Below the pieces are notes generated by a model. The model had not been told where the DNA came from, searched no databases, and saw only the letters and a list, made by a program, of their open reading frames with translations. This document shows, in pieces, positions 35,441 to 62,483 of a stretch of 64,000 bases of DNA; position 1 is the stretch's first letter, and each line of letters begins with the position of its first letter. The DNA is from Ligustrum vulgare (taxonomy: Eukaryota > Streptophyta > Magnoliopsida > Lamiales > Oleaceae): positions 26,536,862 to 26,600,861 of the forward strand of contig OY743170.1 in NCBI GenBank assembly GCA_963555705.1. The letters run 5' to 3'. A program made the translations under genes and the position numbers.

Positions 35441-35455
35441 CTGTAGAAAACAAGA

Positions 35456-40100: not shown

Positions 40101-40292
40101 TCTTAATCCATGTGTCTGAAATCTTGCATAATCTTGTTCTGGATCTATAATTTCTTCTAGATTCTGATTATGTTGTTCTACTCTTCTTAAAACTCGATCT
40201 AAGAAATTTCTATTTTCTCCTGATGTACTTGGTCTAGATGTTCCTTCACTAATTGTTCTAGATCTTCCTATAAAAGGAGTTGTTAAATTCAT
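37194..40292 (-). pseudogene. viral polyprotein, N-terminal part: movement protein, coat protein, protease start
   Basis: 1032 codons from ATG 40292. Residues about 50-330 form a movement-protein region of 30K type (IHLGLIVIGIKG, LLIHVGFLGRC). Residues about 440-660 look like the coat-protein core. Two zinc motifs follow: CX2CX4HX4C (709-722, CFVCNSNEHLARTC) and CX2CX11CX2CX4CX2C (821-847). The second is a signature of badnavirus and tungrovirus coat proteins. A coiled coil (about 855-905) precedes the retropepsin active site LIDSGSSN (D953). The frame ends early at 37194 because a T run at 37198-37200 is one base shorter than in the right copy. Its ATG overlaps the ORF2 stop (ATGA). Confidence 0.9.
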
Positions 40293-40786: not shown

Positions 40787-41076
40787 TCTAAATTTTATTT
40801 AATATTTTTAAAATCTAAGTTTCTTGTTTTTAGATGATCTGAAACTTCTTCTAAAGTTTTATTAATCTTTTTATTAGCTTGTTCTAAATTTTTTGCAAAA
40901 TTTATAACTAAGTCTATTAAAAAATTCTGACTTGGATCTTCTGAAAACAAACTATGTAATTTATGTGCTGTTTCTAAATTACAATTTAAAATATTATTTT
41001 CTATAGTCTTGAACTTTTTACCTTGACTATAAAGTTCTAAGTCTAAATATTCTATGTATCTTTTATTAGCTATGGC
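40609..41076 (-). pseudogene. viral ORF1, no AUG start, one in-frame stop
   Basis: A frame of about 150 codons runs from the primer site to TAA at 40609-40611, broken by one TAA at 40795-40797. It contains no Met codon at all, so translation would need a non-AUG start, as known for ORF1 of rice tungro bacilliform virus. The product is helical and charged (NFAKNLEQANKKINKTLEEV, EITRILDSNKEIL). The function is unknown. Confidence 0.6.
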
Positions 41077-41086
41077 CCTGATACCA
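41071..41086 (-). other. viral primer-binding site (initiator tRNA-Met)
   Basis: Minus strand TGGTATCAGGGCCATA matches the caulimovirid consensus TGGTATCAGAGCCA with one mismatch. It primes minus-strand DNA synthesis. A run of nine or ten C (minus strand) lies a few bases upstream. Confidence 0.85.
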
Positions 41087-41183
41087 AAAGAGAGGGGGGG
41101 GGTATATACTTAAAATAAACACAGCCACTGGCGTAGAAGGGTTTATTCTAAGGTTGGATGTAGAGGTCGGCTTGTGTGCGGAA

Positions 41184-41567
41184 TTATTGGTCTAAAAGAC
41201 TTTCACAATCTTGTCTATAATATCCTGTCTCTATTCTATACTGTTCTAGATAGAAAGGATAGAATTCACTGTCTGTTCTTAAAATTTTTGTTTCTAAAAT
41301 TTCTTCAAGTTCTTTGATTTTAAATTGTAAATCAAAACTTCTTTTACTAGTTCTGTTAATATAATTCTTAAAAGGATAAAAATTACTACTATATCCTTGA
41401 ATGTCTATAACTTTGTCTAAAGTTTTATAGTCTTCTTCTAAAGTTTTGTCTATGACAAAAACTTGGGTCTGGTGTACTGATAATAAATATTGAAAATCTG
41501 AAATAATTTTTGGAAATTCCTTTTCTATGTTTATCTCGTTTGAAGTGTGTGAAGATGAAGGGTTCAT
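41184..41567 (-). CDS. small viral ORF upstream of the primer site, about 127 codons
   Basis: I take ATG 41567 (MNPSSSHTSNE) as start; the frame is open upstream only to a TTG. It reads EFPKIISDFQYLL, a Tyr/Phe-rich middle and a predicted helix (FDLQFKIKELEEILETKI). No known domain. It lies between the leader and the primer site, a place where most caulimovirids have only short ORFs. It exists only in the spacer of the inverted repeat, so there is no second copy to compare. Confidence 0.55.
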   Translation of the reverse strand: MNPSSSHTSNEINIEKEFPKIISDFQYLLSVHQTQVFVIDKTLEEDYKTLDKVIDIQGYSSNFYPFKNYINRTSKRSFDLQFKIKELEEILETKILRTDSEFYPFYLEQYRIETGYYRQDCESLLDQ

Positions 41568-41660
41568 GAAATTCTTTTGTTTTTTCAAATCGTACTTTTA
41601 TCCTACTAGGTACTTTCCTTAGTTTTTCTGTATTTCTTTAATAATATTCTAACAAATCTC

Positions 41661-44018
41661 CTTTATTAAAAATCAAAATTGTGTTATTTTAGAAAAGATT
41701 TCCAAACAAGAAACCATAACTTTAACAAATAATTTTCCAGAAATAACAAGAATTTTAGATTCAAATAAAGAAATTTTACAAGAAACAAGGAAGATTAGTA
41801 ATAAGACAGAAGAACTAAAAGGACTTATTCTTAGTTAATGAATAGAGAATTTGAAAACGAAAGAAATTACAAAGAAGCTTTTGATTATTGTAGAATTTAC
41901 CATAAGGATCCAGAAGGAATAACAAATATAGACTCTCCAAAAGTTTCCGAAGGAATTTTAATAAGACAAAATAATATAATTATTACTCTCTTAGTAAGTT
42001 TACATAAAAAATTAGAAGCCTTTGATAAAAGAATAGACCCTGAAATAGAAAGTGACTTAAGATCTATAACAAATAAATTAGGAAATTTAAACATTAAAGA
42101 AACAGGCAAAGAAAAAGTAACAAGAAGATTATCAAGAGACTTAAAATTTCCAAGATGAATTTAACAACTCCTTTTATAGGAAGATCTAGAACAATTAGTG
42201 AAGGAACATCTAGACCAAGTACATCAGGAGAAAATAGAAATTTCTTAGATCGAGTTTTAAGAAGAGTAGAACAACATAATCAGAATCTAGAAGAAATTAT
42301 AGATCCAGAACAAGATTATGCAAGATTTCAGACACATGGATTAAGAGTACTTAATCCAGATATCTTATATAACAGAGGAATTTTTGAATCAAGAACCCAA
42401 TTCCTTAGACACCATAGAGAAGTAGAAATACAATGTTTAGGAAACCAAGTAGTAAAACTTAATTTAATTTCAGAAGATTCTAAGAAAGAACTTAGAAAAA
42501 GAAATTTTAGATTTATTCACCTAGGATTAATTGTAATAGGAATAAAAGGATTAACTAGAAAAAGTTTAGGATGTAAGACATTAATTACTATTTATGATGA
42601 AAGATTCAATAATATAGAAAAAGGACAGATAGCAAGCATGGAAGTAGACATGAATAGTAATAACGGTATTATTTACTGTAATCCAGACTTCTTAATGACT
42701 ATTAGAGATTTTTCAGAAAAAATTAAAATAGGTATACAAACTAAAGGATACGAAGATACTAATAGTGGAGACAATCTTTTGATACATGTAGGATTCTTAG
42801 GAAGATGTTCAATCAATTCCCAGACAAAATACAAAGTATATATGGATAAAGTAGTAGGACTAATGAGTAGTAAAGGAATAAATATGGTTAAGCCTAAAGA
42901 ATTTTCAGCAGAAAAATTAGCTGGATTAGAATGGGATATGGACAAATTTTTAGAAGAAGAAGAAAAACCAATAGCATCTAGAGAATCTTTAACATATAAA
43001 GACGCACATGGTAGAACAAGTTTAAGATTTACTGATTATCAATTTGTACCAAAGATTTCTGATGAAGAACAACAAGAACCACACCAAGATAAAGTTCACA
43101 TAGAACTATTAGGAGAAGATATTGAAAAAATAATTTATCCAAAAGAATTAGGAATCATTTTAAATAAAGAAGAACTCTTAGAATTAGAAGTTCAAATGTA
43201 TATTTCAAAACAGATAAAGGAAAATGAGTATTTATATTATGATCTAGAACAGAATATTAGGGTAGGTATTATTAATGAAGAAAATGATAACAATACAGAA
43301 GTTACAGATTATAGTTATACAAAAGAACTCATGGAAGATACTATTAGATACAGAACATTTGATGAAACTCCTTTCGATAAGACTGTTAAACATGAGATTT
43401 TAACTTATGGAGATGGTTTTCCTCCTAGAGGAGCCTATAATACATATAATGAACCACCACAGAATAGTAAATACATAGCAAGAGGAAGTGAGAGACCTTT
43501 AGAACAAAAAATAGAATTTCAGACAGCCTCTAAAGCACAAATACTAAACATTACGGCACATGATCCACAAACATGGACAAATGTCATAGATGTTTGGAAA
43601 AATACTATAATAGGACATTATATTAGAAACATAAACGACATGGAACCTTTAGATATGTATAGATACTTAGAAACATTTTTAGGAGAAAGTACAAAAGCAA
43701 TGTGGGAAGCTTATAAGGTAGAAAGAAAAGAAGAATATGATCAATTAATACAATTAGGAAGTAACCCTTATAATTTTGTTAATAAAGTACAAATTCTAAT
43801 CATAGGAGCAGACCCTAATTCAGGACATATGAGTATACAAAGAAAAGCAATGAGAGACTTAGAACAGCTCAATTTATATAAATGGACTAAAGGTAAATAT
43901 GTAAAAAGATTTTTAAATGAATATTATTATCAGACCTCAATTTCAGGAAATACATTTAACCAAGAAATAGGAAATAAGTTATTTCATAAATTATCAGGAC
44001 CATTAGGATTAGAAATTA
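41661..44018 (+). repeat. inverted repeat, right arm: second viral copy, first part
   Basis: Begins within ORF1 (CTTTATTAAAAATC) and runs in viral sense on the plus strand to AGAAATTA, where it is cut. It continues after the retrotransposons at 62484, with 129 bp of virus (equivalent to 38300-38428) missing. Confidence 0.9.
41838..42158 (+). CDS. viral ORF2, right copy
   Basis: Identical in protein to the left-copy ORF2, with the same TAATG and ATGA overlaps. The 5' part of ORF1 is missing here because the arm starts inside it, and no viral promoter precedes this copy. Confidence 0.75.
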   Translation: MNREFENERNYKEAFDYCRIYHKDPEGITNIDSPKVSEGILIRQNNIIITLLVSLHKKLEAFDKRIDPEIESDLRSITNKLGNLNIKETGKEKVTRRLSRDLKFPR

Positions 44019-44080
44019 CAGAATCATGGAATAATCTAGCATCTGTAAAAGAATTTTCAGGAAATACATTTTTTAAATAA
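42155..44080 (+). pseudogene. viral polyprotein, right copy, cut off by the retrotransposon
   Basis: 621 codons identical to the left copy (movement protein and most of the coat core) up to PLGLEI. After that come about 17 codons of filler DNA and a few codons of LTR before the stop at 44080. The zinc fingers and protease are separated by 18.4 kb and resume at 62484. Confidence 0.88.
44019..44069. other. 51-bp filler at the virus/LTR junction
   Basis: This belongs neither to the aligned virus nor to the LTR. Its last 17 bases (TTTCAGGAAATACATTT) repeat viral sequence lying about 100 bp upstream (about 43951-43967). The first 25 bp of the LTR and 129 bp of virus are missing here. Confidence 0.8.
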
Positions 44081-46416
44081 AATGTTTTAAAACTTTAAAT
44101 GCGCGTCGCTACGACTTCTCCAATTTAATTTTAAAAAAAAAAAAATAGTCGTCTAGCCAAATTATAAATGAGATTAAATTAATTTTCATAATATTCAAAC
44201 TTCAGAATTTTACTCAAAATATCCCAACGTCACCGTTTTAAATTTTAATTCAAAAATTTAACGATTTTAAAGCCCAAGATCAAAATTTTATTTTATTATC
44301 AACCAATTAAAGTTCAGCCTCTGTTTTCCATTTTTAAAACCACAATTCAGACACTTTCCCCTCTTAAAGAGAATTCACACACGTTTATATCCACACCTAT
44401 CTGCAAGACTTCCATCCTTCACATCCCTAATCCTCTCCCTCTCTTCCTTAATAACCATGGCCATCCTACTGCAATCCTGCAATTCAGCCTCAATCAAGAG
44501 ATTATGCTTGCAACTGTCCAAACCTACATCACCTCTTTCAGCCCTCAATTCTGCGTCCAGCTCCCTACAATTCTTCCAATCAAACGAATGCCAACAATCT
44601 TCTTTTTTTTTTCAGACTTCAATCTCCAGCATTCCAGTGAGGATCCTTAATTCCAATAATTCCACCCCCTTTCCAACTGCACTCCCTAATTCTCTCCCTC
44701 TTTTCCTTAACGACCATGCCATCCTACTGCATTCCTGCATTACTTCCTCAATCAGCAGGCTACCTCAACTCCCTCAATTCTGCATTCAGTGATTTCAATC
44801 CCTGCATTTCTTCCTCAATCAACAGGCTTCCTCATCCTACCAAATTCAGAAAAAGCAGCTAAAATAACATACCCCATTCTTCATTTCCACACGAGCTCAC
44901 CCAGGCCAAACGACATTACTGGTAATAATTTTTCTGCATTGCTGAACACCTCACAGCCATCGTCACTGCATTCCCAAACCAATCCAACAATACAACACCA
45001 TCATCAAATCCCAAACAAACCCAAATTTCCACAACCAACACATCATGATCGGCCACCATCATTCACCGCACCGAATCAGCCACTACCCAACCTCGATCCA
45101 CACCATTTTTGTCCCAAATCAACCCAAACACCAAGAAAAACAAAGAATCAAGCAAACTCATAAACATACCTCAAACTTTACCGGAGTTCTTCGCCGGAAA
45201 TCACCTAAAGAGTCGAACCACCAAGCCTCGGTTTGGTCTCATTTTCACACCCCAAACCCATCCTTACCATACACAAGAACCACCACCCTAAGGTGGCGCT
45301 AGCGCCGGCGGGATGGCAGCGGAGAAGGGGCGGATCCCCCTCCTTTCCCCATCGTCTCTCTCGGCCACTCTACTCTCTCTCTTTCGATCCTGAAGATTTG
45401 AGAGAGAAATGAGATTTTAATTTTATTTTATTTAGTTTAAGTTTTTGCAAATTTCCTTTTCATCCCCAAGTTTTGAAGTATATTCAATTCAGCCCTTTGT
45501 AATTCAAAAACCTATTAATTTCAGTCCTCTTGTCTAAAATGATTTCAATTTAGTTTTAAATGTTTTTATAATTTACAAATCAGCCCTTATTTTCGTAAAA
45601 TGACTATTTCAGTCCTAAACCTTTCAATTTCTTTAATTTTCAATTTAACCATAAGATTTTATTTTATCACTTAAGACTTTAAATTTCTAAAATACTAATT
45701 AAATTAATTTACTTTTTGGCTAGACGAAGCAGTTGGTGATTTGAGAAGCTGACGTGTTAATCCCGCTCCAATTTTTGAGAACTCGTAACATTTAAAGGTA
45801 GACTCGCCCCCACTAATTGATTTATATTATAATTGCACGTGATTATGTGGATTTGTGTGATATTGTATGCTTAATTGCATGAGAAAAGAAAAGAATATCT
45901 CGTATGAGATAAATTTGAGAATTTATGTTATGCACGTCATAACCTATCTGCTAGCATGATTTAAGAAAAGAATGGTTCATTTGCGTTCACTATGTGATGC
46001 CTATGAATAAGAAAAGAACGTCACTACATTATTTGCATGATTACTTGTCCAATTATCTTTTAGATTAATTATTGGAGTTGAGTCTACTGAGTATTTCATT
46101 TTGAAATGCTCACCCCGTGGTTTTAACAATTTTGCAGATTTCGGCGACGGTGGCGAGTGATGGGCAATGGCGAAGAAAAAAAAAATTTTTGGATATCATT
46201 TTTTGAAAGTCGTGGATTTCGAAATAAACAATTTCATTTTATCATGAATTCCCATTTTTAATAAGTTTGTAAGAATTATTCCATTTAAATTGAATTATCG
46301 CTAAACTTTGATTTATTAAACGTGATATTTAATATTTAGTCATATTTCCGCAATAAAGTGTATTCGAAAATTTAGAAAAGTGACGTTCCGGGCTCCACGG
46401 AACTCGGGGCGTTACA
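44070..46416 (+). repeat. LTR1 (5' truncated by 25 bp)
   Basis: Matches LTR2 from its 26th base (TTTTTAAATAAAATG) to the GGGGCGTTACA end. Inside, a segment with CTCTCCCTCT, CCATCCTACTGCA and TCCTCAATCA is repeated about 240 bp further on. The ORFs at 44457-45302 recur in all three LTRs, have no domain and are not credited as genes. Confidence 0.92.
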
Positions 46417-46419
46417 GCG

Positions 46420-46431
46420 TGGTATCAGAGC
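46420..46431 (+). other. primer-binding site, copy 1 (initiator tRNA-Met)
   Basis: TGGTATCAGAGC starts 4 nt after LTR1. The same site lies after LTR2 at 54453-54464. Confidence 0.95.
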
Positions 46432-46551
46432 GGGTCTACGTTTCTGTAGACTTACAAATTTTGAAAAGAGAATTTTTTTTTTTAAAAAAATAATTGAAAT
46501 AATGTTTTGACGACTTTTTGCCATTGCCATCATTTTCCGCCGACTCCGAAG

Positions 46552-46800
46552 GTAACGAAGTTTAGTATATTGATTTATTTCGGATACTTAAGAATAAATG
46601 TTTTGAGAATTTGACGAGAAAAGAAAAGAAAATACGAGAAAGAATTAGACAACTAGTATCCGAAATAATGAGAAAGAAAGAAACGAGTTTTGGAGCATAA
46701 TGGGAATTAGTACAATTTAAGAAAATTTTCATAAAATATTTCGTCCCTAGATTTAAATAAGTAATAAAACCCTAACTGGACTTTGCATAATGGATTCTAG
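46552..46800 (+). other. candidate leader intron, copy 1
   Basis: Possible donor CCGAAG|GTAACG (46552), a plant-type branch site CTAAC at 46772-46776, and acceptor GATTCTAG ending at 46800, two bases before the ORF1 start codon. A second acceptor (TTCATTTAAG, ending 47520) lies three bases before the gag ATG, after a pyrimidine-rich stretch. Copy 2 has the same sites at +8034. No transcript evidence is available. Confidence 0.45.
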
Positions 46801-46802
46801 GC

Positions 46803-47315
46803 ATGGCACCAATTGACGGGATATCAAACCACATCCTTCGTTTTTGCGCCATACGTCATGACGCTATAGCTAGTGGACTTAGGCTGACTGATGCTCAATC
46901 TATTAGCCGCCTTTTGACTACATTTCCAGAATGTCAGCGTGAACTAGCGATCGATTTTTATAATGACGTGAAGAGATGCCTAGGAGAGGACGTGAAATTC
47001 CAGACTGTCTGCGACGAATTTGTAATGCGGTGGGACCGCTACCTAACCCATGCTCCAGCGCCAGAAATAATTATTCTATCAGATGACGAGGGAGAACCAA
47101 TTGAGATACCCGACGCCGAGTCAGGCATATATGACTATACTCCTAGCTCACCGGGTTATATTTTAGACTCCCCAAGTATGACACCGGGTGCACCCGACTA
47201 CACTCCTGGCTCACCAGGGTATACCCTTGACTCACCGACTATGACCCCGGGCGCACCAGATTATACCCCAGGCACACCAGGATCGATATCTCCTATGTCA
47301 CCACCAAAGATGTAG
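46803..47315 (+). CDS. chromovirus ORF1, 170 aa, with Pol II CTD-like heptads (copy 1)
   Basis: ATG 46803 lies in a good context (GCATGG). Residues 1-85 look like a small helical domain (ILRFCAIRHDAI, ISRLLTTFPECQRELAIDFY). Residues 89-98 (IIILSDDEGE) match a SUMO-interaction motif: a hydrophobic run followed by acidic residues. Residues 112-167 fall into consecutive heptads: YTPSSPG, YILDSPS, MTPGAPD, YTPGSPG, YTLDSPT, MTPGAPD, YTPGTPG, then SISPMSP. Proline stands at heptad position 6 in all seven, as in YSPTSPS of RNA polymerase II. The two 21-residue repeats use different synonymous codons for the same residues, suggesting selection on the protein. Gag-pol of chromoviruses does not need such an ORF. 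Function unknown; recruiting transcription or RNA-processing factors is an inference. Confidence 0.75.
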   Translation: MAPIDGISNHILRFCAIRHDAIASGLRLTDAQSISRLLTTFPECQRELAIDFYNDVKRCLGEDVKFQTVCDEFVMRWDRYLTHAPAPEIIILSDDEGEPIEIPDAESGIYDYTPSSPGYILDSPSMTPGAPDYTPGSPGYTLDSPTMTPGAPDYTPGTPGSISPMSPPKM

Positions 47316-47523
47316 AATATATTACGGTTATCTTAATTTTAGTCTAGCAGTATTCCCATTCCCATTATTGGCAGTCCTATGTCTTGTATCCTCAATCGAA
47401 GGAAATTTTAATCATTAATGAGAATATTTTCAATTTTCGTTCATATTGGAGTTGAATTTATTACAATATTTGGTATAAATTTTATCAGAAGTTACAATAC
47501 ACTCCTTGTTTTCATTTAAGGGA

Positions 47524-50500
47524 ATGGCTAGACGCGTTAACAGGAGTATTATGGACCGTGCTACATCTGAGCAACAGAACTCAGGACAGGGCCCCACAGC
47601 CCAATCCAGTATCATCAGGGATTTACTTTTGGCTGTGCAAGATTTGAGGCAGGCCCCAACAGGTTCCGCAGTGCCAGTTATTGAACAATTCAGGAGGTAC
47701 CGTCCGCCCACTTTTGACGGCGGGGATAATCCACTGGCCGTGGAGGAGTGGTTACAGGGAATCGAGAGGATTTTCAAGCACATCTCTTGCCCTGAGGACA
47801 AGAAGGTTACTTGCGCAGAGTTTATGCTTATCGGTAGGGCTGGCTTTTGGTGGGAGTCCGCATCACGGACTCGGACCGAAGAGGAACAAGCAGCGTTGAC
47901 CTGGGAAGAGTTTAAGGAAGAGATCAAAGACAAGTTCTTCCCACAAGCCCTCCGAGACCACAAGGAGACAGAATTTTTACAGCTAGTTCAGGGTGAGATG
48001 GACATCACTGACTATGAACGGAAGTTCGAGGAACTGTCACGGTATGCTCCACATCTAGTGGAAACCGAAGTTAAGAAGGCACGCCGATTTGAAAGAGGTC
48101 TGCGTTCGGATATTAGGCAGATTGTTGGCTCACATGAACTGCCCACTTACCGGGAAGTTGTGAAGAAAGCTCAGGCCGTGGCTTTTGCTGTTGCAAAGAT
48201 TGGCAACCAAGGAAATCGGAACAATCAAGGGCATCAAGGTAAACGAAAATGGCATGGTCATCATCAGAACAGGAACCAGAATTTCAATAAGAGACAGAAT
48301 ACAGGACCTAGCAGAGGTCAGGTGACCAGTTTCCCTCCACCATGCCCGAAGTGCCAGAAGACGCATAAAGGAGAATGCCTCTTTGGAAACAAGGTTGTTT
48401 GTTACCGATGTGGCCAACCGGGCCACTTTTCTCGAGATTGCAACACAGCACCCGCTCAAGGCTCGGACCAGAAGAAGAACATTGACCAGAACAGAAAAGG
48501 GAAGGCTAAGGTATTTGCCATGGACGCCGTTGAGGACTCCGACGTGATTGCAGGTACACCATTACTTCAACATTCATATACTTGTATTACTTAATTTCAT
48601 GTATCATGCTTTGATCGAATTAATAATATGAACGACGATAACAGGCATTTTATCTGTTTCTGGTATTCCCGTATACGTCCTAATAGATTCGGGTGCTACA
48701 CATTCATTTATTTCCGACTCATGCTTAACTAAATTGAATTTAGTGGGTGAAATAACTGGTAGCATGCTGGAAGTGAGCTTACCGTCAGGAGAAATCCTTG
48801 ACACTAATAGGATAGTCAAGTCTGTGCGAATGGATTTCGATGGGATAGTGTTTGAGGCAGACTTGAATATTATTTCGATGAAGGATTTCGACATTATCCT
48901 AGGAATGGACTGGCTGAGTGCTAACCGTGCCGCAATCATGTGCCATGAGAAGGAAGTAGTATTTCGAAAGAATGGGGATGAGGTGTTCAGATTTTTTGGT
49001 TCGAAGGTTAAAGCACTTCCTCGCCTTATCTCGGCTATGCAAGCTGAAAAGCTAATTGCCAAGGGAAACTGTCAAAGTTATCTGGTTAATCTCCAAGGAA
49101 AACCTGCCGAGGAAATCAAATTGGAGTCAGTGCCAGTTGTGTGTGACTTTCAAGATGTATTTCCAGAAGACCTATCTGGTACTCCGCCTGATAGGCAAGT
49201 GGAATTTGCTATTGACTTGGTGCCAGGAGCTGCCCCTGTTTCGAAAGCCCCGTATCGTATGGCACCGAAAGAATTACAAGAATTGAAAGTCCAACTGGAA
49301 GAACTGCTAGAGAAGGGCTTTATCAGGCCAAGTGTGTCCCCGTGGGGAGCACCTGTGCTATTTGTGAAAAAGAAGGATGGCAGTATGAGAATGTGCATTG
49401 ACTATCGGGAATTGAACAAGTTGACGATAAAGAATAAGTACCCCCTGCCCAGAATCGAAGATTTGTTTGATCAATTAAAAGGAGCTGCGGTATTTTCAAA
49501 GATGGACTTAAGGTCCGGTTACCATCAATTGAAGATCAAGCCTACGGATATACAAAAGACAGCGTTTAGGACTCGATATGGACACTATGAGTTCACGGTG
49601 ATGCCATTCGGTCTTACGAACGCACCGGCAGTATTTATGGACTTGATGAACCGGGTTTTCCATCAGTACTTGGATAAGTTCGTCATTGTCTTCATTGACG
49701 ATATTCTGGTCTATTCCAAAGATTCACAACAGCATTCGAAACATTTGAGGATTGTGTTGGAGACGCTACGGGCAGAAAAGTTATATGCCAAATTTAAGAA
49801 ATGTGAATTTTGGCTTGAGAAGATAGGCTTTCTGGGTCATATTGTCACAAACAATGGCATCGAAGTTGATCCGTCAAAGGTGGAGACAGTGAGTAATTGG
49901 ACTACGCCAGCGAATGCAGGTGATGTGAGAAGCTTTTTGGGACTAGCTGGATATTACCGACGATTTATAGAGGGTTTCTCTAAGATAGCGGGTCCCATGA
50001 CTCAGTTGACACGGAAGGGTGTAAAATTCCAGTGGACAGAGCAGTGTGAACGAAGCTTCCAGGAATTGAAGAATAGACTGGTTTCAGCTCCAGTGTTAAC
50101 AGTGCCGGATGGATCCAAGGATTTTGTGATATACAGTGATGCCTCGAAACATGGTTTAGGATGTGTGCTTATGCAGAAAGGTAAAGTAATTGCCTATGCT
50201 TCGAGACAGTTGAAGCCATACGAGAAAAACTATCCGACGCATGATCTAGAACTGGCAGCTGTTGTACATGCTCTTAAGATTTGGCGACATTACCTATATG
50301 GGAGTAAATGCGAGATTTACACCGACCATAAGAGTCTCAAGTATTTCTTCACTCAGAAGGAATTGAACATGAGACAACGTCGATGGTTGGAACTGGTGAA
50401 GGATTATGATTGTACTATTCTTTACCACCCGGGTAAGGCTAATAAGGTTGCAGATGCACTAAGCAGGAAAGATGTGGGTCAATTATCAGCTTTGGGAACA

Positions 50501-52084
50501 GTACAAGAACAGTTGATTCGGGATTTTCAGAACTTGAGAATCGAAGTGAGAAACAAAGGAATCCAAAGTTTTAGCCGATTGACAAATTTGACAGTGAAGC
50601 CAGATTTGAGAAACAGAATTGTGATGGCTCAGGAAAGCGATAAGTTTTTGGAAAAGATCAAAGCCGAAGTTGGAACTGGCAAGAGAGCAGATTTTGAAAT
50701 CGGAAGCGATAATGCACTATTATTCAAGGGTCGCCTGTGTGTACCGAAGGATGATCAGATTAGGAATGAAATATTGAGGGAAGCCCACTCAGCTCCATAT
50801 GCAGCTCATCCAGGAGGAACAAAAATGTACCGAGATTTGCGTACTACATTCTGGTGGAGGAATATGAAGGGATGCATCGCTAAGTTTGTCTCACGATGCA
50901 TGACCTGTCAGCAAGTCAAGGCTGAACATCAGAGACCGTCAGGACTACTAAAACCTTTAGACATTCCGGAATGGAAATGGGAGAAGATTTCCATGGATTT
51001 CGTAACAGGCTTACCAAGAACAGTGAGGGGACATGACGCCATTTGGGTTATTGTGGACCGACTTACAAAGTCAGCCCATTTTCTTCCAGTGCGGATGACT
51101 CTCAGTATAGATCACTTGGCCCAAATTTATATAAAGGAGATCGTTCGACTTCACGGGATTCCAGCGTCTATTATTTCAGATAGGGATCCGAGATTCACTT
51201 CGAGATTTTGGAAGAGCTTACACACGGCTATGGGGACTAAATTAAATTTTAGTACCGCTTACCACCCGCAGACGGACGGACAGTCTGAACGCACCATTCA
51301 GACCTTAGAGGATATGCTTAGAGCCTGTGTACTGGACTTAAGCGGCAATTGGGAAGCTCACCTGCCATTGGTAGAGTTTTCTTACAATAACAGTTTTCAG
51401 GCTACCATTGGTATGGCACCGTATGAAGCACTGTATGGGCGAAGATGTCGATCGCCGGTATATTGGGATGAGGTTGGCGAGAGGAAGTTATTGGGTCCTG
51501 AATTAATTGAAAAGACTGTAGGGGCTATCGAGAAGATCAGATTGCGAATTAAAGCTGCCCAGGACAGACAGAAGAGTTATGCTGATCAGAGAAGAAAAGA
51601 CTTGGAGTTCGAGATTGGAGAGAAAGTATTTTTGAAAATCTCCCCTATGAAGGGCACTATTCGTTTTGGCAAGAAAGGGAAATTAAGGCCTCGGTTTATC
51701 GGACCTTTTGAAATATTGGAGAAAGTAGGTAGTGTGGCTTATCGTCTAGCATTGCCACCCGAGCTCTCGGCTATACACAATGTTTTTCACATCTCTCTAT
51801 TGAGAAAATACGTTCACGATCCCAGTCACGTGGTAAACTTTCAGTCAGTCCCGATTCAGAAAAATCTCTATTATGAAGAAGCACCCATGTGCATCATTGA
51901 TAGAAAAGTCCATGTCCTAAGAAATAAAGAAATTTCTCTAGTCAAAGTCCAGTGGGGTAGACATAGTAGCGATGAGGCTACATGGGAAAAAGAAGAAGAA
52001 ATTCTGGCCAAGTATCCAGATATTTTAGATCGAGTAAGTTTTAAATTTCGAGGACGAAATTATTTTAAGGTGGTAGGGTTGTAG
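47524..52084 (+). CDS. chromovirus Gag-Pol polyprotein, spliced (47524-48553, 48645-52084), copy 1
   Basis: Joined, the exons give 4470 nt, 1489 residues. Gag (1-343) has a retrotransposon capsid domain ([25 protein letters not shown]) and a zinc knuckle [14 protein letters not shown]. Protease: [10 protein letters not shown] (D358). [34 protein letters not shown] (about 694). RNase [31 protein letters not shown]. Integrase: zinc-binding HPGG...CMTCQQ, then D-D-E in [21 protein letters not shown] and GQSERTIQ, then a GPY/F-like module ([13 protein letters not shown]). A chromodomain of the Tekay/Del kind (about 1425-1475, LVKVQWG...[10 protein letters not shown]) may guide integration to heterochromatin. 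The gag ATG 47524 (MARRVN) is preferred over an upstream TTG. The stop TAG lies inside LTR2. All motifs are intact. Confidence 0.92.
48554..48644 (+). other. 91-nt intron between gag and pol, copy 1
   Basis: GCAG|GTACAC donor and GATAACAG|GC acceptor, AT-rich. Unspliced, gag stops at 48594 and the protease frame is closed by TGA at 48629. Removing 91 nt (not a multiple of three) joins the two frames exactly, GAG codon phase 1 to [16 protein letters not shown]. Unspliced RNA would make Gag alone, spliced RNA Gag-Pol. Confidence 0.85.
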
Positions 52085-54449
52085 CGACCGGGAATTTTAA
52101 TTTCTTTTTAAATAAAATGTTTTAAAACTTTAAATGCGCGTCGCTACGACTTCTCCAATTTAATTTTAAAAAAAAAAATAGTCGTCTAGCCAAATTATAA
52201 ATGAGATTAAATTAATTTTCATAATATTCAAACTTCAGAATTTTACTCAAAATATCCCAACGTCACCGTTTTAAATTTTAATTCAAAAATTTAACGATTT
52301 TAAAGCCCAAGATCAAAATTTTATTTTATTATCAACCAATTAAAGTTCAGCCTCTGTTTTCCATTTTTAAAACCACAATTCAGACACTTTCCCCTCTTAA
52401 AGAGAATTCACACACGTTTATATCCACACCTATCTGCAAGACTTCCATCCTTCACATCCCTAATCCTCTCCCTCTCTTCCTTAATAACCATGGCCATCCT
52501 ACTGCAATCCTGCAATTCAGCCTCAATCAAGAGATTATGCTTGCAACTGTCCAAACCTACATCACCTCTTTCAGCCCTCAATTCTGCGTCCAGCTCCCTA
52601 CAATTCTTCCAATCAAACGAATGCCAACAATCTTCTTTTTTTTTTCAGACTTCAATCTCCAGCATTCCAGTGAGGATCCTTAATTCCAATAATTCCACCC
52701 CCTTTCCAACTGCACTCCCTAATTCTCTCCCTCTTTTCCTTAACGACCATGCCATCCTACTGCATTCCTGCATTACTTCCTCAATCAGCAGGCTACCTCA
52801 ACTCCCTCAATTCTGCATTCAGTGATTTCAATCCCTGCATTTCTTCCTCAATCAACAGGCTTCCTCATCCTACCAAATTCAGAAAAAGCAGCTAAAATAA
52901 CATACCCCATTCTTCATTTCCACACGAGCTCACCCAGGCCAAACGACATTACTGGTAATAATTTTTCTGCATTGCTGAACACCTCACAGCCATCGTCACT
53001 GCATTCCCAAACCAATCCAACAATACAACACCATCATCAAATCCCAAACAAACTCAAATTTCCACAACCAACACATCATGATCGGCCACCATCATTCACC
53101 GCACCGAATCAGCCACTACCCAACCTCGATCCACACCATTTTTGTCCCAAATCAACCCAAACACCAAGAAAAACAAAGAATCAAGCAAACTCATAAACAT
53201 ACCTCAAACTTTACCGGAGTTCTTCGCCGGAAATCACCTAAAGAGTCGAACCACCAAGCCTCGGTTTGGTCTCATTTTCACACCCCAAACCCATCCTTAC
53301 CATACACAAGAACCACCACCCTAAGGTGGCGCTAGCGCCGGCGGGATGGCAGCGGAGAAGGGGCGGATCCCCCTCCTTTCCCCATCGTCTCTCTCGGCCA
53401 CTCTACTCTCTCTCTTTCGATCCTGAAGATTTGAGAGAGAAATGAGATTTTAATTTTATTTTATTTAGTTTAAGTTTTTGCAAATTTCCTTTTCATCCCC
53501 AAGTTTTGAAGTATATTCAATTCAGCCCTTTGTAATTCAAAAACCTATTAATTTCAGTCCTCTTGTCTAAAATGATTTCAATTTAGTTTTAAATGTTTTT
53601 ATAATTTACAAATCAGCCCTTATTTTCGTAAAATGACTATTTCAGTCCTAAACCTTTCAATTTCTTTAATTTTCAATTTAACCATAAGATTTTATTTTAT
53701 CACTTAAGACTTTAAATTTCTAAAATACTAATTAAATTAATTTACTTTTTGGCTAGACGAAGCAGTTGGTGATTTGAGAAGCTGACGTGTTAATCCCGCT
53801 CCAATTTTTGAGAACTCGTAACATTTAAAGGTAGACTCGCCCCCACTAATTGATTTATATTATAATTGCACGTGATTATGTGGATTTGTGTGATATTGTA
53901 TGCTTAATTGCATGAGAAAAGAAAAGAATATCTCGTATGAGATAAATTTGAGAATTTATGTTATGCACGTCATAACCTATCTGCTAGCATGATTTAAGAA
54001 AAGAATGGTTCATTTGCGTTCACTATGTGATGCCTATGAATAAGAAAAGAACGTCACTACATTATTTGCATGATTACTTGTCCAATTATCTTTTAGATTA
54101 ATTATTGGAGTTGAGTCTACTGAGTATTTCATTTTGAAATGCTCACCCCGTGGTTTTAACAATTTTGCAGATTTCGGCGACGGTGGCGAGTGATGGGCAA
54201 TGGCGAAGAAAAAAAAAATTTTTGGATATCATTTTTTGAAATTCGTGGATTTCGAAATAAACAATTTCATTTTATCATGAATTCCCATTTTTAATAAGTT
54301 TGTAAGAATTATTCCATTTAAATTGAATTATCGCTAAACTTTGATTTATTAAACGTGATATTTAATATTTAGTCATATTTCCGCAATAAAGTGTATTCGA
54401 AAATTTAGAAAAGTGACGTTCCGGGCTCCACGGAACTCGGGGCGTTACA
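52080..54449 (+). repeat. LTR2, shared by both elements (2370 bp)
   Basis: TGTAGCGACC...GGGGCGTTACA. It is preceded by the tract AAGGTGGTAGGG (imperfect polypurine). At two places it differs from both LTR1 and LTR3 (AAACTCAAA near 53050, AAATTCG near 54241). Confidence 0.95.
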
Positions 54450-54836: not shown

Positions 54837-55349
54837 ATGGCACCAATTGACGGGATATCAAACCACATCCTTCGTTTTTGCGCCATACGTCATGACGCTA
54901 TAGCTAGTGGACTTAGGCTGACTGATGCTCAATCTATTAGCCGCCTTTTGACTACATTTCCAGAATGTCAGCGTGAACTAGCGATCGATTTTTATAATGA
55001 CGTGAAGAGATGCCTAGGAGAGGACGTGAAATTCCAGACTGTCTGCGACGAATTTGTAATGCGGTGGGACCGCTACCTAACCCATGCTCCAGCGCCAGAA
55101 ATAATTATTCTATCAGATGACGAGGGAGAACCAATTGAGATACCCGACGCCGAGTCAGGCATATATGACTATACTCCTAGCTCACCGGGTTATATTTTAG
55201 ACTCCCCAAGTATGACACCGGGTGCACCCGACTACACTCCTGGCTCACCAGGGTATACCCTTGACTCACCGACTATGACCCCGGGCGCACCAGATTATAC
55301 CCCAGGCACACCAGGATCGATATCTCCTATGTCACCACCAAAGATGTAG
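54837..55349 (+). CDS. chromovirus ORF1 with CTD-like heptads (copy 2)
   Basis: Identical in protein to the copy at 46803-47315, with the same start context and candidate acceptor two bases before the ATG. Confidence 0.75.
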   Translation: MAPIDGISNHILRFCAIRHDAIASGLRLTDAQSISRLLTTFPECQRELAIDFYNDVKRCLGEDVKFQTVCDEFVMRWDRYLTHAPAPEIIILSDDEGEPIEIPDAESGIYDYTPSSPGYILDSPSMTPGAPDYTPGSPGYTLDSPTMTPGAPDYTPGTPGSISPMSPPKM

Positions 55350-55557
55350 AATATATTACGGTTATCTTAATTTTAGTCTAGCAGTATTCCCATTCCCATT
55401 ATTGGCAGTCCTATGTCTTGTATCCTCAATCGAAGGAAATTTTAATCATTAATGAGAATATTTTCAATTTTCGTTCATATTGGAGTTGAATTTATTACAA
55501 TATTTGGTATAAATTTTATCAGAAGTTACAATACACTCCTTGTTTTCATTTAAGGGA

Positions 55558-58500
55558 ATGGCTAGACGCGTTAACAGGAGTATTATGGACCGTGCTACAT
55601 CTGAGCAACAGAACTCAGGACAGGGCCCCACAGCCCAATCCAGTATCATCAGGGATTTACTTTTGGCTGTGCAAGATTTGAGGCAGGCCCCAACAGGTTC
55701 CGCAGTGCCAGTTATTGAACAATTCAGGAGGTACCGTCCGCCCACTTTTGACGGCGGGGATAATCCACTGGCCGTGGAGGAGTGGTTACAGGGAATCGAG
55801 AGGATTTTCAAGCACATCTCTTGCCCTGAGGACAAGAAGGTTACTTGCGCAGAGTTTATGCTTATCGGTAGGGCTGGCTTTTGGTGGGAGTCCGCATCAC
55901 GGACTCGGACCGAAGAGGAACAAGCAGCGTTGACCTGGGAAGAGTTTAAGGAAGAGATCAAAGACAAGTTCTTCCCACAAGCCCTCCGAGACCACAAGGA
56001 GACAGAATTTTTACAGCTAGTTCAGGGTGAGATGGACATCACTGACTATGAACGGAAGTTCGAGGAACTGTCACGGTATGCTCCACATCTAGTGGAAACC
56101 GAAGTTAAGAAGGCACGCCGATTTGAAAGAGGTCTGCGTTCGGATATTAGGCAGATTGTTGGCTCACATGAACTGCCCACTTACCGGGAAGTTGTGAAGA
56201 AAGCTCAGGCCGTGGCTTTTGCTGTTGCAAAGATTGGCAACCAAGGAAATCGGAACAATCAAGGGCATCAAGGTAAACGAAAATGGCATGGTCATCATCA
56301 GAACAGGAACCAGAATTTCAATAAGAGACAGAATACAGGACCTAGCAGAGGTCAGGTGACCAGTTTCCCTCCACCATGCCCGAAGTGCCAGAAGACGCAT
56401 AAAGGAGAATGCCTCTTTGGAAACAAGGTTGTTTGTTACCGATGTGGCCAACCGGGCCACTTTTCTCGAGATTGCAACACAGCACCCGCTCAAGGCTCGG
56501 ACCAGAAGAAGAACATTGACCAGAACAGAAAAGGGAAGGCTAAGGTATTTGCCATGGACGCCGTTGAGGACTCCGACGTGATTGCAGGTACACCATTACT
56601 TCAACATTCATATACTTGTATTACTTAATTTCATGTATCATGCTTTGATCGAATTAATAATATGAACGACGATAACAGGCATTTTATCTGTTTCTGGTAT
56701 TCCCGTATACGTCCTAATAGATTCGGGTGCTACACATTCATTTATTTCCGACTCATGCTTAACTAAATTGAATTTAGTGGGTGAAATAACTGGTAGCATG
56801 CTGGAAGTGAGCTTACCGTCAGGAGAAATTCTTGACACTAATAGGATAGTCAAGTCTGTGCGAATGGATTTCGATGGGATAGTGTTTGAGGCAGACTTGA
56901 ATATTATTTCGATGAAGGATTTCGACATTATCCTAGGAATGGACTGGCTGAGTGCTAACCGTGCCGCAATCATGTGCCATGAGAAGGAAGTAGTATTTCG
57001 AAAGAATGGGGATGAGGTGTTCAGATTTTTTGGTTCGAAGGTTAAAGCACTTCCTCGCCTTATCTCGGCTATGCAAGCTGAAAAGCTAATTGCCAAGGGA
57101 AACTGTCAAAGTTATCTGGTTAATCTCCAAGGAAAACCTGCCGAGGAAATCAAATTGGAGTCAGTGCCAGTTGTGTGTGACTTTCAAGATGTATTTCCAG
57201 AAGACCTATCTGGTACTCCGCCTGATAGGCAAGTGGAATTTGCTATTGACTTGGTGCCAGGAGCTGCCCCTGTTTCGAAAGCCCCGTATCGTATGGCACC
57301 GAAAGAATTACAAGAATTGAAAGTCCAACTGGAAGAACTGCTAGAGAAGGGCTTTATCAGGCCAAGTGTGTCCCCGTGGGGAGCACCTGTGCTATTTGTG
57401 AAAAAGAAGGATGGCAGTATGAGAATGTGCATTGACTATCGGGAATTGAACAAGTTGACGATAAAGAATAAGTACCCCCTGCCCAGAATCGAAGATTTGT
57501 TTGATCAATTAAAAGGAGCTGCGGTATTTTCAAAGATGGACTTAAGGTCCGGTTACCATCAATTGAAGATCAAGCCTACGGATATACAAAAGACAGCGTT
57601 TAGGACTCGATATGGACACTATGAGTTCACGGTGATGCCATTCGGTCTTACGAACGCACCGGCAGTATTTATGGACTTGATGAACCGGGTTTTCCATCAG
57701 TACTTGGATAAGTTCGTCATTGTCTTCATTGACGATATTCTGGTCTATTCCAAAGATTCACAACAGCATTCGAAACATTTGAGGATTGTGTTGGAGACGC
57801 TACGGGCAGAAAAGTTATATGCCAAATTTAAGAAATGTGAATTTTGGCTTGAGAAGATAGGCTTTCTGGGTCATATTGTCACAAACAATGGCATCGAAGT
57901 TGATCCGTCAAAGGTGGAGACAGTGAGTAATTGGACTACGCCAGCGAATGCAGGTGATGTGAGAAGCTTTTTGGGACTAGCTGGATATTACCGACGATTT
58001 ATAGAGGGTTTCTCTAAGATAGCGGGTCCCATGACTCAGTTGACACGGAAGGGTGTAAAATTCCAGTGGACAGAGCAGTGTGAACGAAGCTTCCAGGAAT
58101 TGAAGAATAGACTGGTTTCAGCTCCAGTGTTAACAGTGCCGGATGGATCCAAGGATTTTGTGATATACAGTGATGCCTCGAAACATGGTTTAGGATGTGT
58201 GCTTATGCAGAAAGGTAAAGTAATTGCCTATGCTTCGAGACAGTTGAAGCCATACGAGAAAAACTATCCGACGCATGATCTAGAACTGGCAGCTGTTGTA
58301 CATGCTCTTAAGATTTGGCGACATTACCTATATGGGAGTAAATGCGAGATTTACACCGACCATAAGAGTCTCAAGTATTTCTTCACTCAGAAGGAATTGA
58401 ACATGAGACAACGTCGATGGTTGGAACTGGTGAAGGATTATGATTGTACTATTCTTTACCACCCGGGTAAGGCTAATAAGGTTGCAGATGCACTAAGCAG

Positions 58501-60118
58501 GAAAGATGTGGGTCAATTATCAGCTTTGGGAACAGTACAAGAACAGTTGATTCGGGATTTTCAGAACTTGAGAATCGAAGTGAGAAACAAAGGAATCCAA
58601 AGTTTTAGCCGATTGACAAATTTGACAGTGAAGCCAGATTTGAGAAACAGAATTGTGATGGCTCAGGAAAGCGATAAGTTTTTGGAAAAGATCAAAGCCG
58701 AAGTTGGAACTGGCAAGAGAGCAGATTTTGAAATCGGAAGCGATAATGCACTATTATTCAAGGGTCGCCTGTGTGTACCGAAGGATGATCAGATTAGGAA
58801 TGAAATATTGAGGGAAGCCCACTCAGCTCCATATGCAGCTCATCCAGGAGGAACAAAAATGTACCGAGATTTGCGTACTACATTCTGGTGGAGGAATATG
58901 AAGGGATGCATCGCTAAGTTTGTCTCACGATGCATGACCTGTCAGCAAGTCAAGGCTGAACATCAGAGACCGTCAGGACTACTAAAACCTTTAGACATTC
59001 CGGAATGGAAATGGGAGAAGATTTCCATGGATTTCGTAACAGGCTTACCAAGAACAGTGAGGGGACATGACGCCATTTGGGTTATTGTGGACCGACTTAC
59101 AAAGTCAGCCCATTTTCTTCCAGTGCGGATGACTCTCAGTATAGATCACTTGGCCCAAATTTATATAAAGGAGATCGTTCGACTTCACGGGATTCCAGCG
59201 TCTATTATTTCAGATAGGGATCCGAGATTCACTTCGAGATTTTGGAAGAGCTTACACACGGCTATGGGGACTAAATTAAATTTTAGTACCGCTTACCACC
59301 CGCAGACGGACGGACAGTCTGAACGCACCATTCAGACCTTAGAGGATATGCTTAGAGCCTGTGTACTGGACTTAAGCGGCAATTGGGAAGCTCACCTGCC
59401 ATTGGTAGAGTTTTCTTACAATAACAGTTTTCAGGCTACCATTGGTATGGCACCGTATGAAGCACTGTATGGGCGAAGATGTCGATCGCCGGTATATTGG
59501 GATGAGGTTGGCGAGAGGAAGTTATTGGGTCCTGAATTAATTGAAAAGACTGTAGGGGCTATCGAGAAGATCAGATTGCGAATTAAAGCTGCCCAGGACA
59601 GACAGAAGAGTTATGCTGATCAGAGAAGAAAAGACTTGGAGTTCGAGATTGGAGAGAAAGTATTTTTGAAAATCTCCCCTATGAAGGGCACTATTCGTTT
59701 TGGCAAGAAAGGGAAATTAAGGCCTCGGTTTATCGGACCTTTTGAAATATTGGAGAAAGTAGGTAGTGTGGCTTATCGTCTAGCATTGCCACCCGAGCTC
59801 TCGGCTATACACAATGTTTTTCACATCTCTCTATTGAGAAAATACGTTCACGATCCCAGTCACGTGGTAAACTTTCAGTCAGTCCCGATTCAGAAAAATC
59901 TCTATTATGAAGAAGCACCCATGTGCATCATTGATAGAAAAGTCCATGTCCTAAGAAATAAAGAAATTTCTCTAGTCAAAGTCCAGTGGGGTAGACATAG
60001 TAGCGATGAGGCTACATGGGAAAAAGAAGAAGAAATTCTGGCCAAGTATCCAGATATTTTAGATCGAGTAAGTTTTAAATTTCGAGGACGAAATTATTTT
60101 AAGGTGGTAGGGTTGTAG
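55558..60118 (+). CDS. chromovirus Gag-Pol, spliced (55558-56587, 56679-60118), copy 2
   Basis: Same exon structure, length and protein as copy 1; all catalytic motifs present. One silent-looking difference was noted (GAAATT here, GAAATC in copy 1, both Ile). Its stop codon lies in LTR3. Confidence 0.92.
56588..56678 (+). other. 91-nt intron between gag and pol, copy 2
   Basis: Same donor and acceptor as in copy 1, shifted by 8034 bp. Confidence 0.85.
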
Positions 60119-62483
60119 CGACCGGGAATTTTAATTTCTTTTTAAATAAAATGTTTTAAAACTTTAAATGCGCGTCGCTACGACTTCTCCAATTTAATTT
60201 TAAAAAAAAAAAATAGTCGTCTAGCCAAATTATAAATGAGATTAAATTAATTTTCATAATATTCAAACTTCAGAATTTTACTCAAAATATCCCAACGTCA
60301 CCGTTTTAAATTTTAATTCAAAAATTTAACGATTTTAAAGCCCAAGATCAAAATTTTATTTTATTATCAACCAATTAAAGTTCAGCCTCTGTTTTCCATT
60401 TTTAAAACCACAATTCAGACACTTTCCCCTCTTAAAGAGAATTCACACACGTTTATATCCACACCTATCTGCAAGACTTCCATCCTTCACATCCCTAATC
60501 CTCTCCCTCTCTTCCTTAATAACCATGGCCATCCTACTGCAATCCTGCAATTCAGCCTCAATCAAGAGATTATGCTTGCAACTGTCCAAACCTACATCAC
60601 CTCTTTCAGCCCTCAATTCTGCGTCCAGCTCCCTACAATTCTTCCAATCAAACGAATGCCAACAATCTTCTTTTTTTTTTCAGACTTCAATCTCCAGCAT
60701 TCCAGTGAGGATCCTTAATTCCAATAATTCCACCCCCTTTCCAACTGCACTCCCTAATTCTCTCCCTCTTTTCCTTAACGACCATGCCATCCTACTGCAT
60801 TCCTGCATTACTTCCTCAATCAGCAGGCTACCTCAACTCCCTCAATTCTGCATTCAGTGATTTCAATCCCTGCATTTCTTCCTCAATCAACAGGCTTCCT
60901 CATCCTACCAAATTCAGAAAAAGCAGCTAAAATAACATACCCCATTCTTCATTTCCACACGAGCTCACCCAGGCCAAACGACATTACTGGTAATAATTTT
61001 TCTGCATTGCTGAACACCTCACAGCCATCGTCACTGCATTCCCAAACCAATCCAACAATACAACACCATCATCAAATCCCAAACAAACCCAAATTTCCAA
61101 AACCAACACATCATGATCGGCCACCATCATTCACCGCACCGAATCAGCCACTACCCAACCTCGATCCACACCATTTTTGTCCCAAATCAACCCAAACACC
61201 AAGAAAAACAAAGAATCAAGCAAACTCATAAACATACCTCAAACTTTACCGGAGTTCTTCGCCGGAAATCACCTAAAGAGTCGAACCACCAAGCCTCGGT
61301 TTGGTCTCATTTTCACACCCCAAACCCATCCTTACCATACACAAGAACCACCACCCTAAGGTGGCGCTAGCGCCGGCGGGATGGCAGCGGAGAAGGGGCG
61401 GATCCCCCTCCTTTCCCCATCGTCTCTCTCGGCCACTCTACTCTCTCTCTTTCGATCCTGAAGATTTGAGAGAGAAATGAGATTTTAATTTTATTTTATT
61501 TAGTTTAAGTTTTTGCAAATTTCCTTTTCATCCCCAAGTTTTGAAGTATATTCAATTCAGCCCTTAGTAATTCAAAAACCTATTAATTTCAGTCCTCTTG
61601 TCTAAAATGATTTCAATTTAGTTTTAAATGTTTTTATAATTTACAAATCAGCCCTTATTTTCGTAAAATGACTATTTCAGTCCTAAACCTTTCAATTTCT
61701 TTAATTTTCAATTTAACCATAAGATTTTATTTTATCACTTAAGACTTTAAATTTCTAAAATACTAATTAAATTAATTTACTTTTTGGCTAGACGAAGCAG
61801 TTGGTGATTTGAGAAGCTGACGTGTTAATCCCGCTCCAATTTTTGAGAACTCGTAACATTTAAAGGTAGACTCGCCCCCACTAATTGATTTATATTATAA
61901 TTGCACGTGATTATGTGGATTTGTGTGATATTGTATGCTTAATTGCATGAGAAAAGAAAAGAATATCTCGTATGAGATAAATTTGAGAATTTATGTTATG
62001 CACGTCATAACCTATCTGCTAGCATGATTTAAGAAAAGAATGGTTCATTTGCGTTCACTATGTGATGCCTATGAATAAGAAAAGAACGTCACTACATTAT
62101 TTGCATGATTACTTGTCCAATTATCTTTTAGATTAATTATTGGAGTTGAGTCTACTGAGTATTTCATTTTGAAATGCTCACCCCGTGGTTTTAACAATTT
62201 TGCAGATTTCGGCGACGGTGGCGAGTGATGGGCAATGGCGAAGAAAAAAAAAATTTTGGATATCATTTTTTGAAAGTCGTGGATTTCGAAATAAACAATT
62301 TCATTTTATCATGAATTCCCATTTTTAATAAGTTTGTAAGAATTATTCCATTTAAATTGAATTATCGCTAAACTTTGATTTATTAAACGTGATATTTAAT
62401 ATTTAGTCATATTTCCGCAATAAAGTGTATTCGAAAATTTAGAAAAGTGACGTTCCGGGCTCCACGGAACTCGGGGCGTTACA
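60114..62483 (+). repeat. LTR3 (2370 bp), 3' end joined to virus
   Basis: Ends GGGGCGTTACA at 62483 and is followed directly by viral AGAAGAATCTT. Two differences from LTR1 and LTR2 were noted (CTTAGTAATTC near 61565, CCAAAACC near 61098). The presumed target duplication AGAAG cannot be confirmed because the 5' flank is deleted. Confidence 0.95.

Follow-up and report, generated by a model that had tools for sequence, protein, structure and literature searches.

A selected 5′ accessory protein in a Ty3/gypsy retrotransposon of Ligustrum vulgare, with a predicted capsid-like domain, a SUMO-interaction-like motif and heptads resembling the RNA polymerase II tail

A Ty3/gypsy long terminal repeat (LTR) retrotransposon lies in a 64,000-nucleotide stretch of the Ligustrum vulgare genome (contig OY743170.1, positions 26,536,862 to 26,600,861; hereafter the window). 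On the sense strand it carries an additional open reading frame (ORF), which we call ORF1, downstream of its primer binding site (46420) and upstream of gag (47524). Comparison of genomic copies indicates that ORF1 encodes a protein kept by natural selection. The reading frame, the selection acting on it, the modular layout of the protein, the family-specific tails and the splicing between gag and pro are established directly. We put at even chances the further reading that ORF1 is a selected 5′ accessory protein in which a module resembling the C-terminal domain of a capsid presents short docking motifs to nuclear host proteins. The family of the window copy is named A, and its sister families B, C and D. 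The features of ORF1 are as follows; CTD stands for the carboxy-terminal domain of RNA polymerase II and SIM for SUMO-interaction motif.

46803..47315, plus strand: ORF1, a 5′ accessory protein of 170 amino acids (uninterrupted translation; selection analysis)
46803..47057, plus strand: predicted four-helix domain, residues 1-85, resembling the C-terminal domain of a capsid (AlphaFold2, fold comparison, profile search)
47064..47096, plus strand: SIM-like motif EIIILSDDEGE, residues 88-98 (translation, pattern count)
47112..47159, plus strand: DAES plus GIYDYTPSSPGY, residues 104-119, a block common to families A, C and D
47136..47282, plus strand: seven CTD-like heptads, residues 112-160, in three tandem 21-residue units, the last incomplete
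54837..55349, plus strand: second ORF1, identical to the first (ORF list, self-alignment)

The original prediction, made from the window alone, had described a 170-residue product ending in seven CTD-like heptads plus a near-match, and this description holds. From residue 112 onwards the heptads read YTPSSPG, YILDSPS, MTPGAPD, YTPGSPG, YTLDSPT, MTPGAPD and YTPGTPG, followed by SISPMSP. Position 6 is Pro in all seven, preceded each time by S, T or A, and position 1 is Tyr in five and Met in the remaining two. The best identity of any heptad to the consensus YSPTSPS is 4/7, and the eighth scores 0/7. Tandem Repeats Finder (TRF) reports periods of 63 bp and 21 bp in the tail. The SIM-like motif proposed at the same time is also present (IIILSDDEGE, residues 89-98), with the hydrophobic core and the acidic/Ser run of such motifs, and is conserved across copies: a general SIM pattern occurs in 74 of 86 copies and in 2.5% of shuffled ORF1 proteins.

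The L. vulgare genome (1.385 Gb) holds at least 210 matches to ORF1, with 150 of 1185 candidates scored. We read 90 family A loci, two of them the window's own copies; intactness is overestimated, since these loci were chiefly the best matches. Residues 1-170 were not spanned in 15 of them, leaving 75 copies, of which 66 have no internal stop and 65 also terminate at the expected stop. The protein has 170 residues in 49 spanning copies, 149 in 22 and another length in four, the 149-residue form having one 21-residue unit fewer and thus four heptads instead of seven. The short form includes a group of 30 listed places that are 97% identical over residues 1-119 and have an equal open-frame length; five of these places were read (L031-L035), and all encode 149 residues. 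The number of heptads therefore varies, being four or seven in most copies read. At two loci (L081 and L082, G000:C1 near 71.64 and 71.51 Mb), ORF1 runs in frame past residue 129 into unrelated GDVIQITDTSPHKDPLKIKGGPMTRLQAKRAKE..., and these perhaps represent a chimeric element. Elsewhere, a local tandem array holds three ORF1 copies about 1.54 kb apart (G000:C23:23754953-23758473).

Changes found in single copies look neutral, with an omega-like ratio of 1.26-1.35 in ORF1 and 1.04 in gag. For changes common to at least five copies, the ratio is 0.21 in residues 1-85, 0.26 in residues 86-107 and 0.42 in residues 108-170, and 0.16 in gag (55 copies, the other 35 of the 90 loci having no usable gag 1-230). 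Setting CpG-type changes aside gives 0.19, 0.40 and 0.48 for the three regions, respectively. Fixed differences in the diverged clade L079/L085/L087 amount to 10 nonsynonymous and 13 synonymous in residues 1-85, 2 and 6 in residues 86-107, and 4 and 4 in residues 108-170. Within the window copy, tail units 1 and 2 show 10 differences that are synonymous and 6 that are nonsynonymous (dN/dS about 0.10), with a modest excess at third positions (10/16, p=0.016). Selection, instead of a fresh microsatellite, had been proposed for the tail, and is borne out both by the depletion of amino-acid changes common to at least five copies and by the synonymous excess between units. The tail is nevertheless the least constrained part of the protein (0.42 vs. 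0.21 for the N-terminal domain).

A diverged gag relic present in the window led to the sister families, and 18 regions upstream of sister gag copies were read. An ORF1-type N-terminal domain, whole or partial, is present in 11 of the 18, and none was seen in the other seven within the roughly 1.1 kb upstream of gag that was read. Ten of the 11 constitute family B, whose tails consist of acidic E/P repeats. Its readable end is SDAESCITQ or a close variant in 9/10, right where the family A heptads start, and there is no clear SIM-like motif. For families C and D, 16 further loci were read (L109-L124). Family C, found via L104, has 205 matches; in the six loci read, the SIM-like motif is present twice and the C-terminus resembles GIYDYTPSSPGYSPWFNYGAPPAAPPSGGNGWLNE. 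The ten family D loci have the layout EVIIISDDED...DAESGIYDYTPSSPGYSPWFKFGS..., with GIYDYTPSSPGYSPW exact in six and recognisable in the other four, and a tandem SIM-like motif in three (L121-L123).

From this comparison it follows that families A, C and D have in common the N-terminal domain, the SIM-like motif, the DAES sequence and a single YTPSSPGY block. The GIYDYTPSSPGY sequence is identical at 12/12 residues between the window and family C (L110), with 7.0/8.3 synonymous and 0/27.7 nonsynonymous sites changed, at an N-terminal domain identity of 48%. Between the window and family D (L115), 5.0/8.3 synonymous sites are changed and no nonsynonymous ones. The block is strongly, not absolutely, conserved, since the diverged A copy L085 and the D copy L117 differ in it at 3.0/27.3 nonsynonymous sites. 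Multiple heptads were observed in the tails of family A alone, families C and D having a single GIYDYTPSSPGY block with no further heptads. Homologues without heptads thus exist, a result that the original prediction had itself named as speaking against it, which weakens the case for the heptads as the core function. The SIM-like motif is more widespread than the heptads, occurring twice in family C and in some D loci, and is better supported. We take SIMs of the DAXX/PIAS class as its closest comparison: in both, a hydrophobic core (IIIL/VIVI) precedes a Ser/acidic run.

A search with a profile of families A-D plus one external match yielded four external proteins with homology to ORF1 (P0002, P0003, P0004 and P0005). 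P0002 had first emerged from profile A1, with E 1.3e-9; its E value in profile A2 is not independent, because P0002 is among the A2 rows. The N-terminal domain and acidic linkers are common to all four; [DE]SExESC lies close to the C-terminus of P0002-P0004, and EAPPSKLRR and EAPPKKIRR occur near the ends of P0004 and P0005, respectively. P0003, annotated at NCBI as uncharacterized LOC111398460 isoform X2, a host gene model of Olea europaea var. sylvestris, is probably a transposon protein.

The N-terminal domain was absent from the original prediction. AlphaFold2 models it as four helices, with a predicted local distance difference test score of 85-91 over residues 11-80, and fold comparison likens the modelled residues 1-85, with moderate support, to the C-terminal half of Copia/Ty1-type Gag capsids (PDB 7nlg, 8vvw) over 71-78 residues. 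A profile search gave Copia capsid at E 0.076, and 2/9 members of PF14223 match the domain (best E 0.028). On these models the domain is, on balance, likely to be capsid-like in fold.

Several observations weigh against reading ORF1 as a selected, capsid-like docking protein. The next profile match, to an unrelated designed barrel, came at E 0.12, which slightly reduces the odds of a capsid-like fold. The case for a constrained heptad tail, made through its dN/dS, stands for changes in at least five copies (0.42) and fails for those common to 2-4 copies, which are near neutral over the whole tail (1.06); with the unit absent from the short form removed, the corresponding values are 0.26 and 1.81. 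When all shared changes are pooled, neither the tail (p=0.087) nor residues 86-107 (p=0.075) is significant.

A different reading places the function in the heptads, the tail being a CTD mimic that would be phosphorylated in the manner of the CTD, bind capping, splicing, 3′-end or kinase factors and so steer processing of the element's RNA. The resemblance is indeed sequence-specific, as had been claimed. Gapped alignment of the tail to yeast CTD stretches scores 145, with a maximum of 124 among 2000 shuffles in which [STA]P and [DG]Y pairs stay together, and ungapped alignment scores 137, the closest of 2000 [STA]P-preserving shuffles reaching 135 and none equalling it. The 7-residue lag within one 21-residue unit (the middle one, picked by the analyst) has p=0.003. 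When the 64-residue tail was compared with all PDB sequences, 16/16 distinct matches at E<=10 were RPB1/CTD peptides (best E 8.5e-12), and two [STA]P-preserving, composition-matched shuffles produced none to RPB1 (0 matches; 2 weak unrelated). Whole ORF1 reaches only E 1.2e-5, its domain scores carrying a large bias from composition; the resemblance is therefore real but rests on the repeats. The tail has the heptad spacing of RPB1, Pro at position 6, mostly Tyr at position 1, Thr-Pro at positions 2-3 in 5/7 heptads and Ser/Thr-Pro at 5-6 in 5/7. A human CTD stretch reads YTPSSPSYSP where the block of families C and D reads YTPSSPGYSP. The presence of YTPSSPGY in three families and the lack of any change common to at least five copies at heptad position 1 are also in keeping with mimicry, and GIYDYTPSSPGYSP and the heptads are possible candidate segments for CTD-interacting domains and capping enzyme.

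Unlike the RPB1 CTD, however, the ORF1 tail has mostly four or seven repeats with at most 4/7 identity to the consensus and is not joined to a polymerase; in the window copy it lacks Ser at position 2 and has Met for Tyr every third heptad. Tandem heptads are confined to family A: family B proteins end where they would start, B-type and external homologues have other tails, and the 45-residue C-terminus of family C has no PDB match at E<=10. Within family A, 22/75 copies keep only four heptads, the tail is under weaker constraint than the other regions, and changes common to at least five copies occur at heptad positions 3 (three), 5 (one) and 6 (one). CTD mimicry by the ORF1 tail is thus possible, but it is not a function that the protein family as a whole shares; as the explanation of ORF1 we consider it doubtful.

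The tail might instead be nothing more than a disordered, Pro-rich linker of the usual kind that follows a structural domain and has no partner of its own, its periodicity being a by-product of minisatellite duplication. The TRF periods, the varying number of units, the E/P-rich tails of family B and the near-neutral changes common to 2-4 copies all fit this explanation, as does the sunflower Tekay 5′ accessory ORF (5′aORF) protein, largely disordered and proline-rich in the available part of its description (PMC11728184). It would not account for a GIYDYTPSSPGY block without nonsynonymous change towards L110 or L115 despite extensive synonymous change, for the synonymous excess between tail units, or for the depletion of tail changes common to at least five copies, and we regard it as unlikely.

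Similarly improbable, in our view, is a self-encoded restriction or copy-number control factor, with the capsid-like domain poisoning Gag assembly in the manner of Ty1 p22. From what is accessible of PMC8458377, p22/p18 is, like ORF1, a small free-standing retrotransposon protein, with a fold similar to that predicted for ORF1 residues 1-85. However, p22 is part of its own Gag, whereas ORF1 is a separate gene outside gag, in a Ty3/gypsy element, and shows no detectable similarity to residues 1-230 of its own Gag (hhalign probability 0.15%, itself a weak test). We know of no docking tail of the ORF1 kind in Ty1 p22, and a self-limiting factor would be hard to keep under purifying selection in the same element. 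Capture of a host gene fragment, e.g. from RPB1 or another Pro-rich gene, is scarcely credible: the tail is similar to RPB1 and host-gene transduction by retroelements is possible (PMC7264820, in the part available), but the N-terminal domain is common to several families and to external homologues with other tails, and each 21-residue unit comprises three dissimilar heptads and no copies of YSPTSPS; no search aimed at a host gene with this N-terminal domain and heptads was made.

The element has the following candidate leader splice sites and gag-pro intron:

46549..46557, plus strand: best-scoring 5′ splice site AAG/GTAACG, donor 46552 (range 45200-47523, scored with a splice-site matrix)
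46772..46800, plus strand: CTAAC branch-point-like sequence and AG acceptor directly before the ORF1 start codon
47519..47520, plus strand: AG acceptor-like site directly before gag, recurring in copies as TTTAAG/GG-like sites
48554..48644, plus strand: 91-nt gag-pro intron, GT-AG, between the gag and pol frames

Splicing of the element had been proposed, and is confirmed at gag-pro: the gag-pro intron region was in view in 67 of the 90 loci, the other 23 being set aside, and of these 67, two (L006 and L047) lack precisely the predicted 91 nt. As these copies are without exactly 48554-48644, reverse transcription of spliced RNA is indicated. Further upstream, AAGGTAA occurs within 400 nt of ORF1 in 79/90 copies, the 8 bases preceding the ORF1 start are TTCTAGGC or TTCTAGAC (TTCTAG/GC or TTCTAG/AC) in 80/90, and CTAAC lies upstream of the ORF1 acceptor in most copies shown. 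Alternative use of the ORF1 and gag acceptors would yield two messages, one for ORF1 and one for gag-pol. No leader-spliced join was found in the loci retrieved, which had almost all been selected because they contain ORF1 or gag regions.

The original statement that no chromovirus protein of this kind is known upstream of gag is weakened by two descriptions already in the literature, both consulted in part: ORF0 of Retrosat2/RIRE3/RIRE8 (PMC3485330) and the sunflower Tekay group 2 5′aORF, upstream of gag (PMC11728184). ORF1, a sense ORF between primer binding site and gag that is open in 65/75 spanning copies (best matches), is a 5′ accessory ORF of this aORF/ORF0 type in a Ty3/gypsy element. 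According to the portion of PMC11728184 available, the sunflower ORF shares with ORF1 its place and sense between 5′ LTR and gag, its conservation in most copies and a proline-rich, largely disordered protein with helical parts. Compared by description only, it differs in having about 400 amino acids and a nuclear localisation signal, and that portion mentions no capsid-like domain, SIM or heptads. ORF0, like ORF1, is an extra ORF beside the main ORF of its (grass) elements, and it diverges faster than that main ORF. Among the homologues compared, those of maize, sorghum and Brachypodium have ORF0, and those of Arabidopsis, soybean, poplar, grape and Selaginella do not; the text seen infers enzyme-like functions from modelling and has no CTD-like repeats (PMC3485330). 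The sunflower and grass proteins are reported to have no amino-acid similarity (PMC11728184, as available). According to the accessible part of a survey, almost 4,000 plant LTR retrotransposons (582 Ty1/copia and 3,372 Ty3/gypsy) have extra ORFs, mostly of unknown function; its threshold of at least 250 codons would miss ORFs as short as ORF1 (PMC6317226). In the open-licence literature we found no report of a capsid-like domain, a SIM-like motif or CTD-like heptads in such an accessory protein; these three features may be new in ORF1, 5′aORFs themselves being already known.

The host element occupies 44070-62483 as LTR-internal-LTR-internal-LTR, with two nearly identical units differing at six alignment positions over about 8 kb:

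44070..46416, plus strand: first LTR, without its first ~25 bases (self-alignment, LTR ends)
46420..46431, plus strand: primer binding site TGGTATCAGAGC, which we take to be of the initiator-tRNA-Met type
47524..48594, plus strand: gag ORF (CCHC) (ORF list, Pfam)
48764..52084, plus strand: pol ORF, with protease, reverse transcriptase, RNase H, integrase and a weak chromodomain (ORF list, Pfam)
52080..54449, plus strand: shared middle LTR
55558..56628, plus strand: second gag (ORF list)
56798..60118, plus strand: second pol (ORF list)
60114..62483, plus strand: last LTR

Gag matches Retrotrans_gag, Ty3_capsid and CCHC in Pfam, and the domain order (Gag with CCHC, then protease, reverse transcriptase, RNase H and integrase) is that of Ty3. 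The chromodomain PF00385 at the integrase C-terminus has E 1.7e-4 and 21.9 bits, below the cut-off of 25.1. The element presumably belongs to the Tekay clade, a name taken from the original prediction and from general features of the clade. Each LTR contains a 111-codon ORF (44457-44792, 52490-52825, 60525-60860) with no Pfam match above cut-off. The tandem structure is reported to be common in plants (PMC11899658, in the part available), and a head-to-tail array with four gag copies at about 5.09-kb spacing lies at G000:C17:30926086-30941543. The element is inserted into an endogenous pararetrovirus-like stretch, whose ORFs at 34568-44069 and 62484-63784 form an inverted repeat. It lacks a normal target duplication, with a ~51-base filler (44019-44069) before the first LTR, the other flank starting at 62484 and about 129 bases of the inverted copy (38300-38428) missing at the site. 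On the minus strand, 27131-33165 contains remnants of related Ty3/gypsy elements. Among them, a gag relic 54% identical to the window gag is seemingly cut by the pararetrovirus-like stretch just upstream, in the expected place of an ORF1.

We propose the following model for ORF1. Its N-terminal 85 residues would fold into a four-helix module similar to the C-terminal half of Copia/Ty1-type Gag capsids, followed by a linker, the SIM-like motif, the DAES anchor and the conserved GIYDYTPSSPGY block, which in family A may have been extended by, or amplified into, tandem heptads, usually four or seven in number. The heptads would then be a family-specific, multivalent extension of the YTPSSPGYSP block present in C and D. 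Made from leader-spliced RNA (donor 46552, acceptor before 46803), the protein may self-associate or join Gag particles through its capsid-like module. The resulting multimer could display many short docking motifs to nuclear host proteins, with SUMO-carrying chromatin proteins, proline-directed kinases and possibly CTD readers as candidate partners. The element might benefit through the transcription and processing of its RNA, or through the choice of integration place. A bolder version, in which tandem growth of an ancestral YTPSSPGYSP gave a capsid-domain protein a multivalent CTD-like, SUMO-binding tail that draws transcription or RNA-processing factors to element RNA or target chromatin, is a long shot.

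Globally, one family of extra ORFs gains a testable architecture, a predicted capsid-like module with a SIM-like motif and Tyr/Ser/Thr-Pro motifs under measurable selection, and very different sequences, including an olive host gene model, are united in one protein family. A single genome offers natural variants for comparison, with no heptads, one block, or four or seven heptads. If the CTD resemblance is functional, ORF1 would be an unusual case of a mobile element mimicking the polymerase tail.
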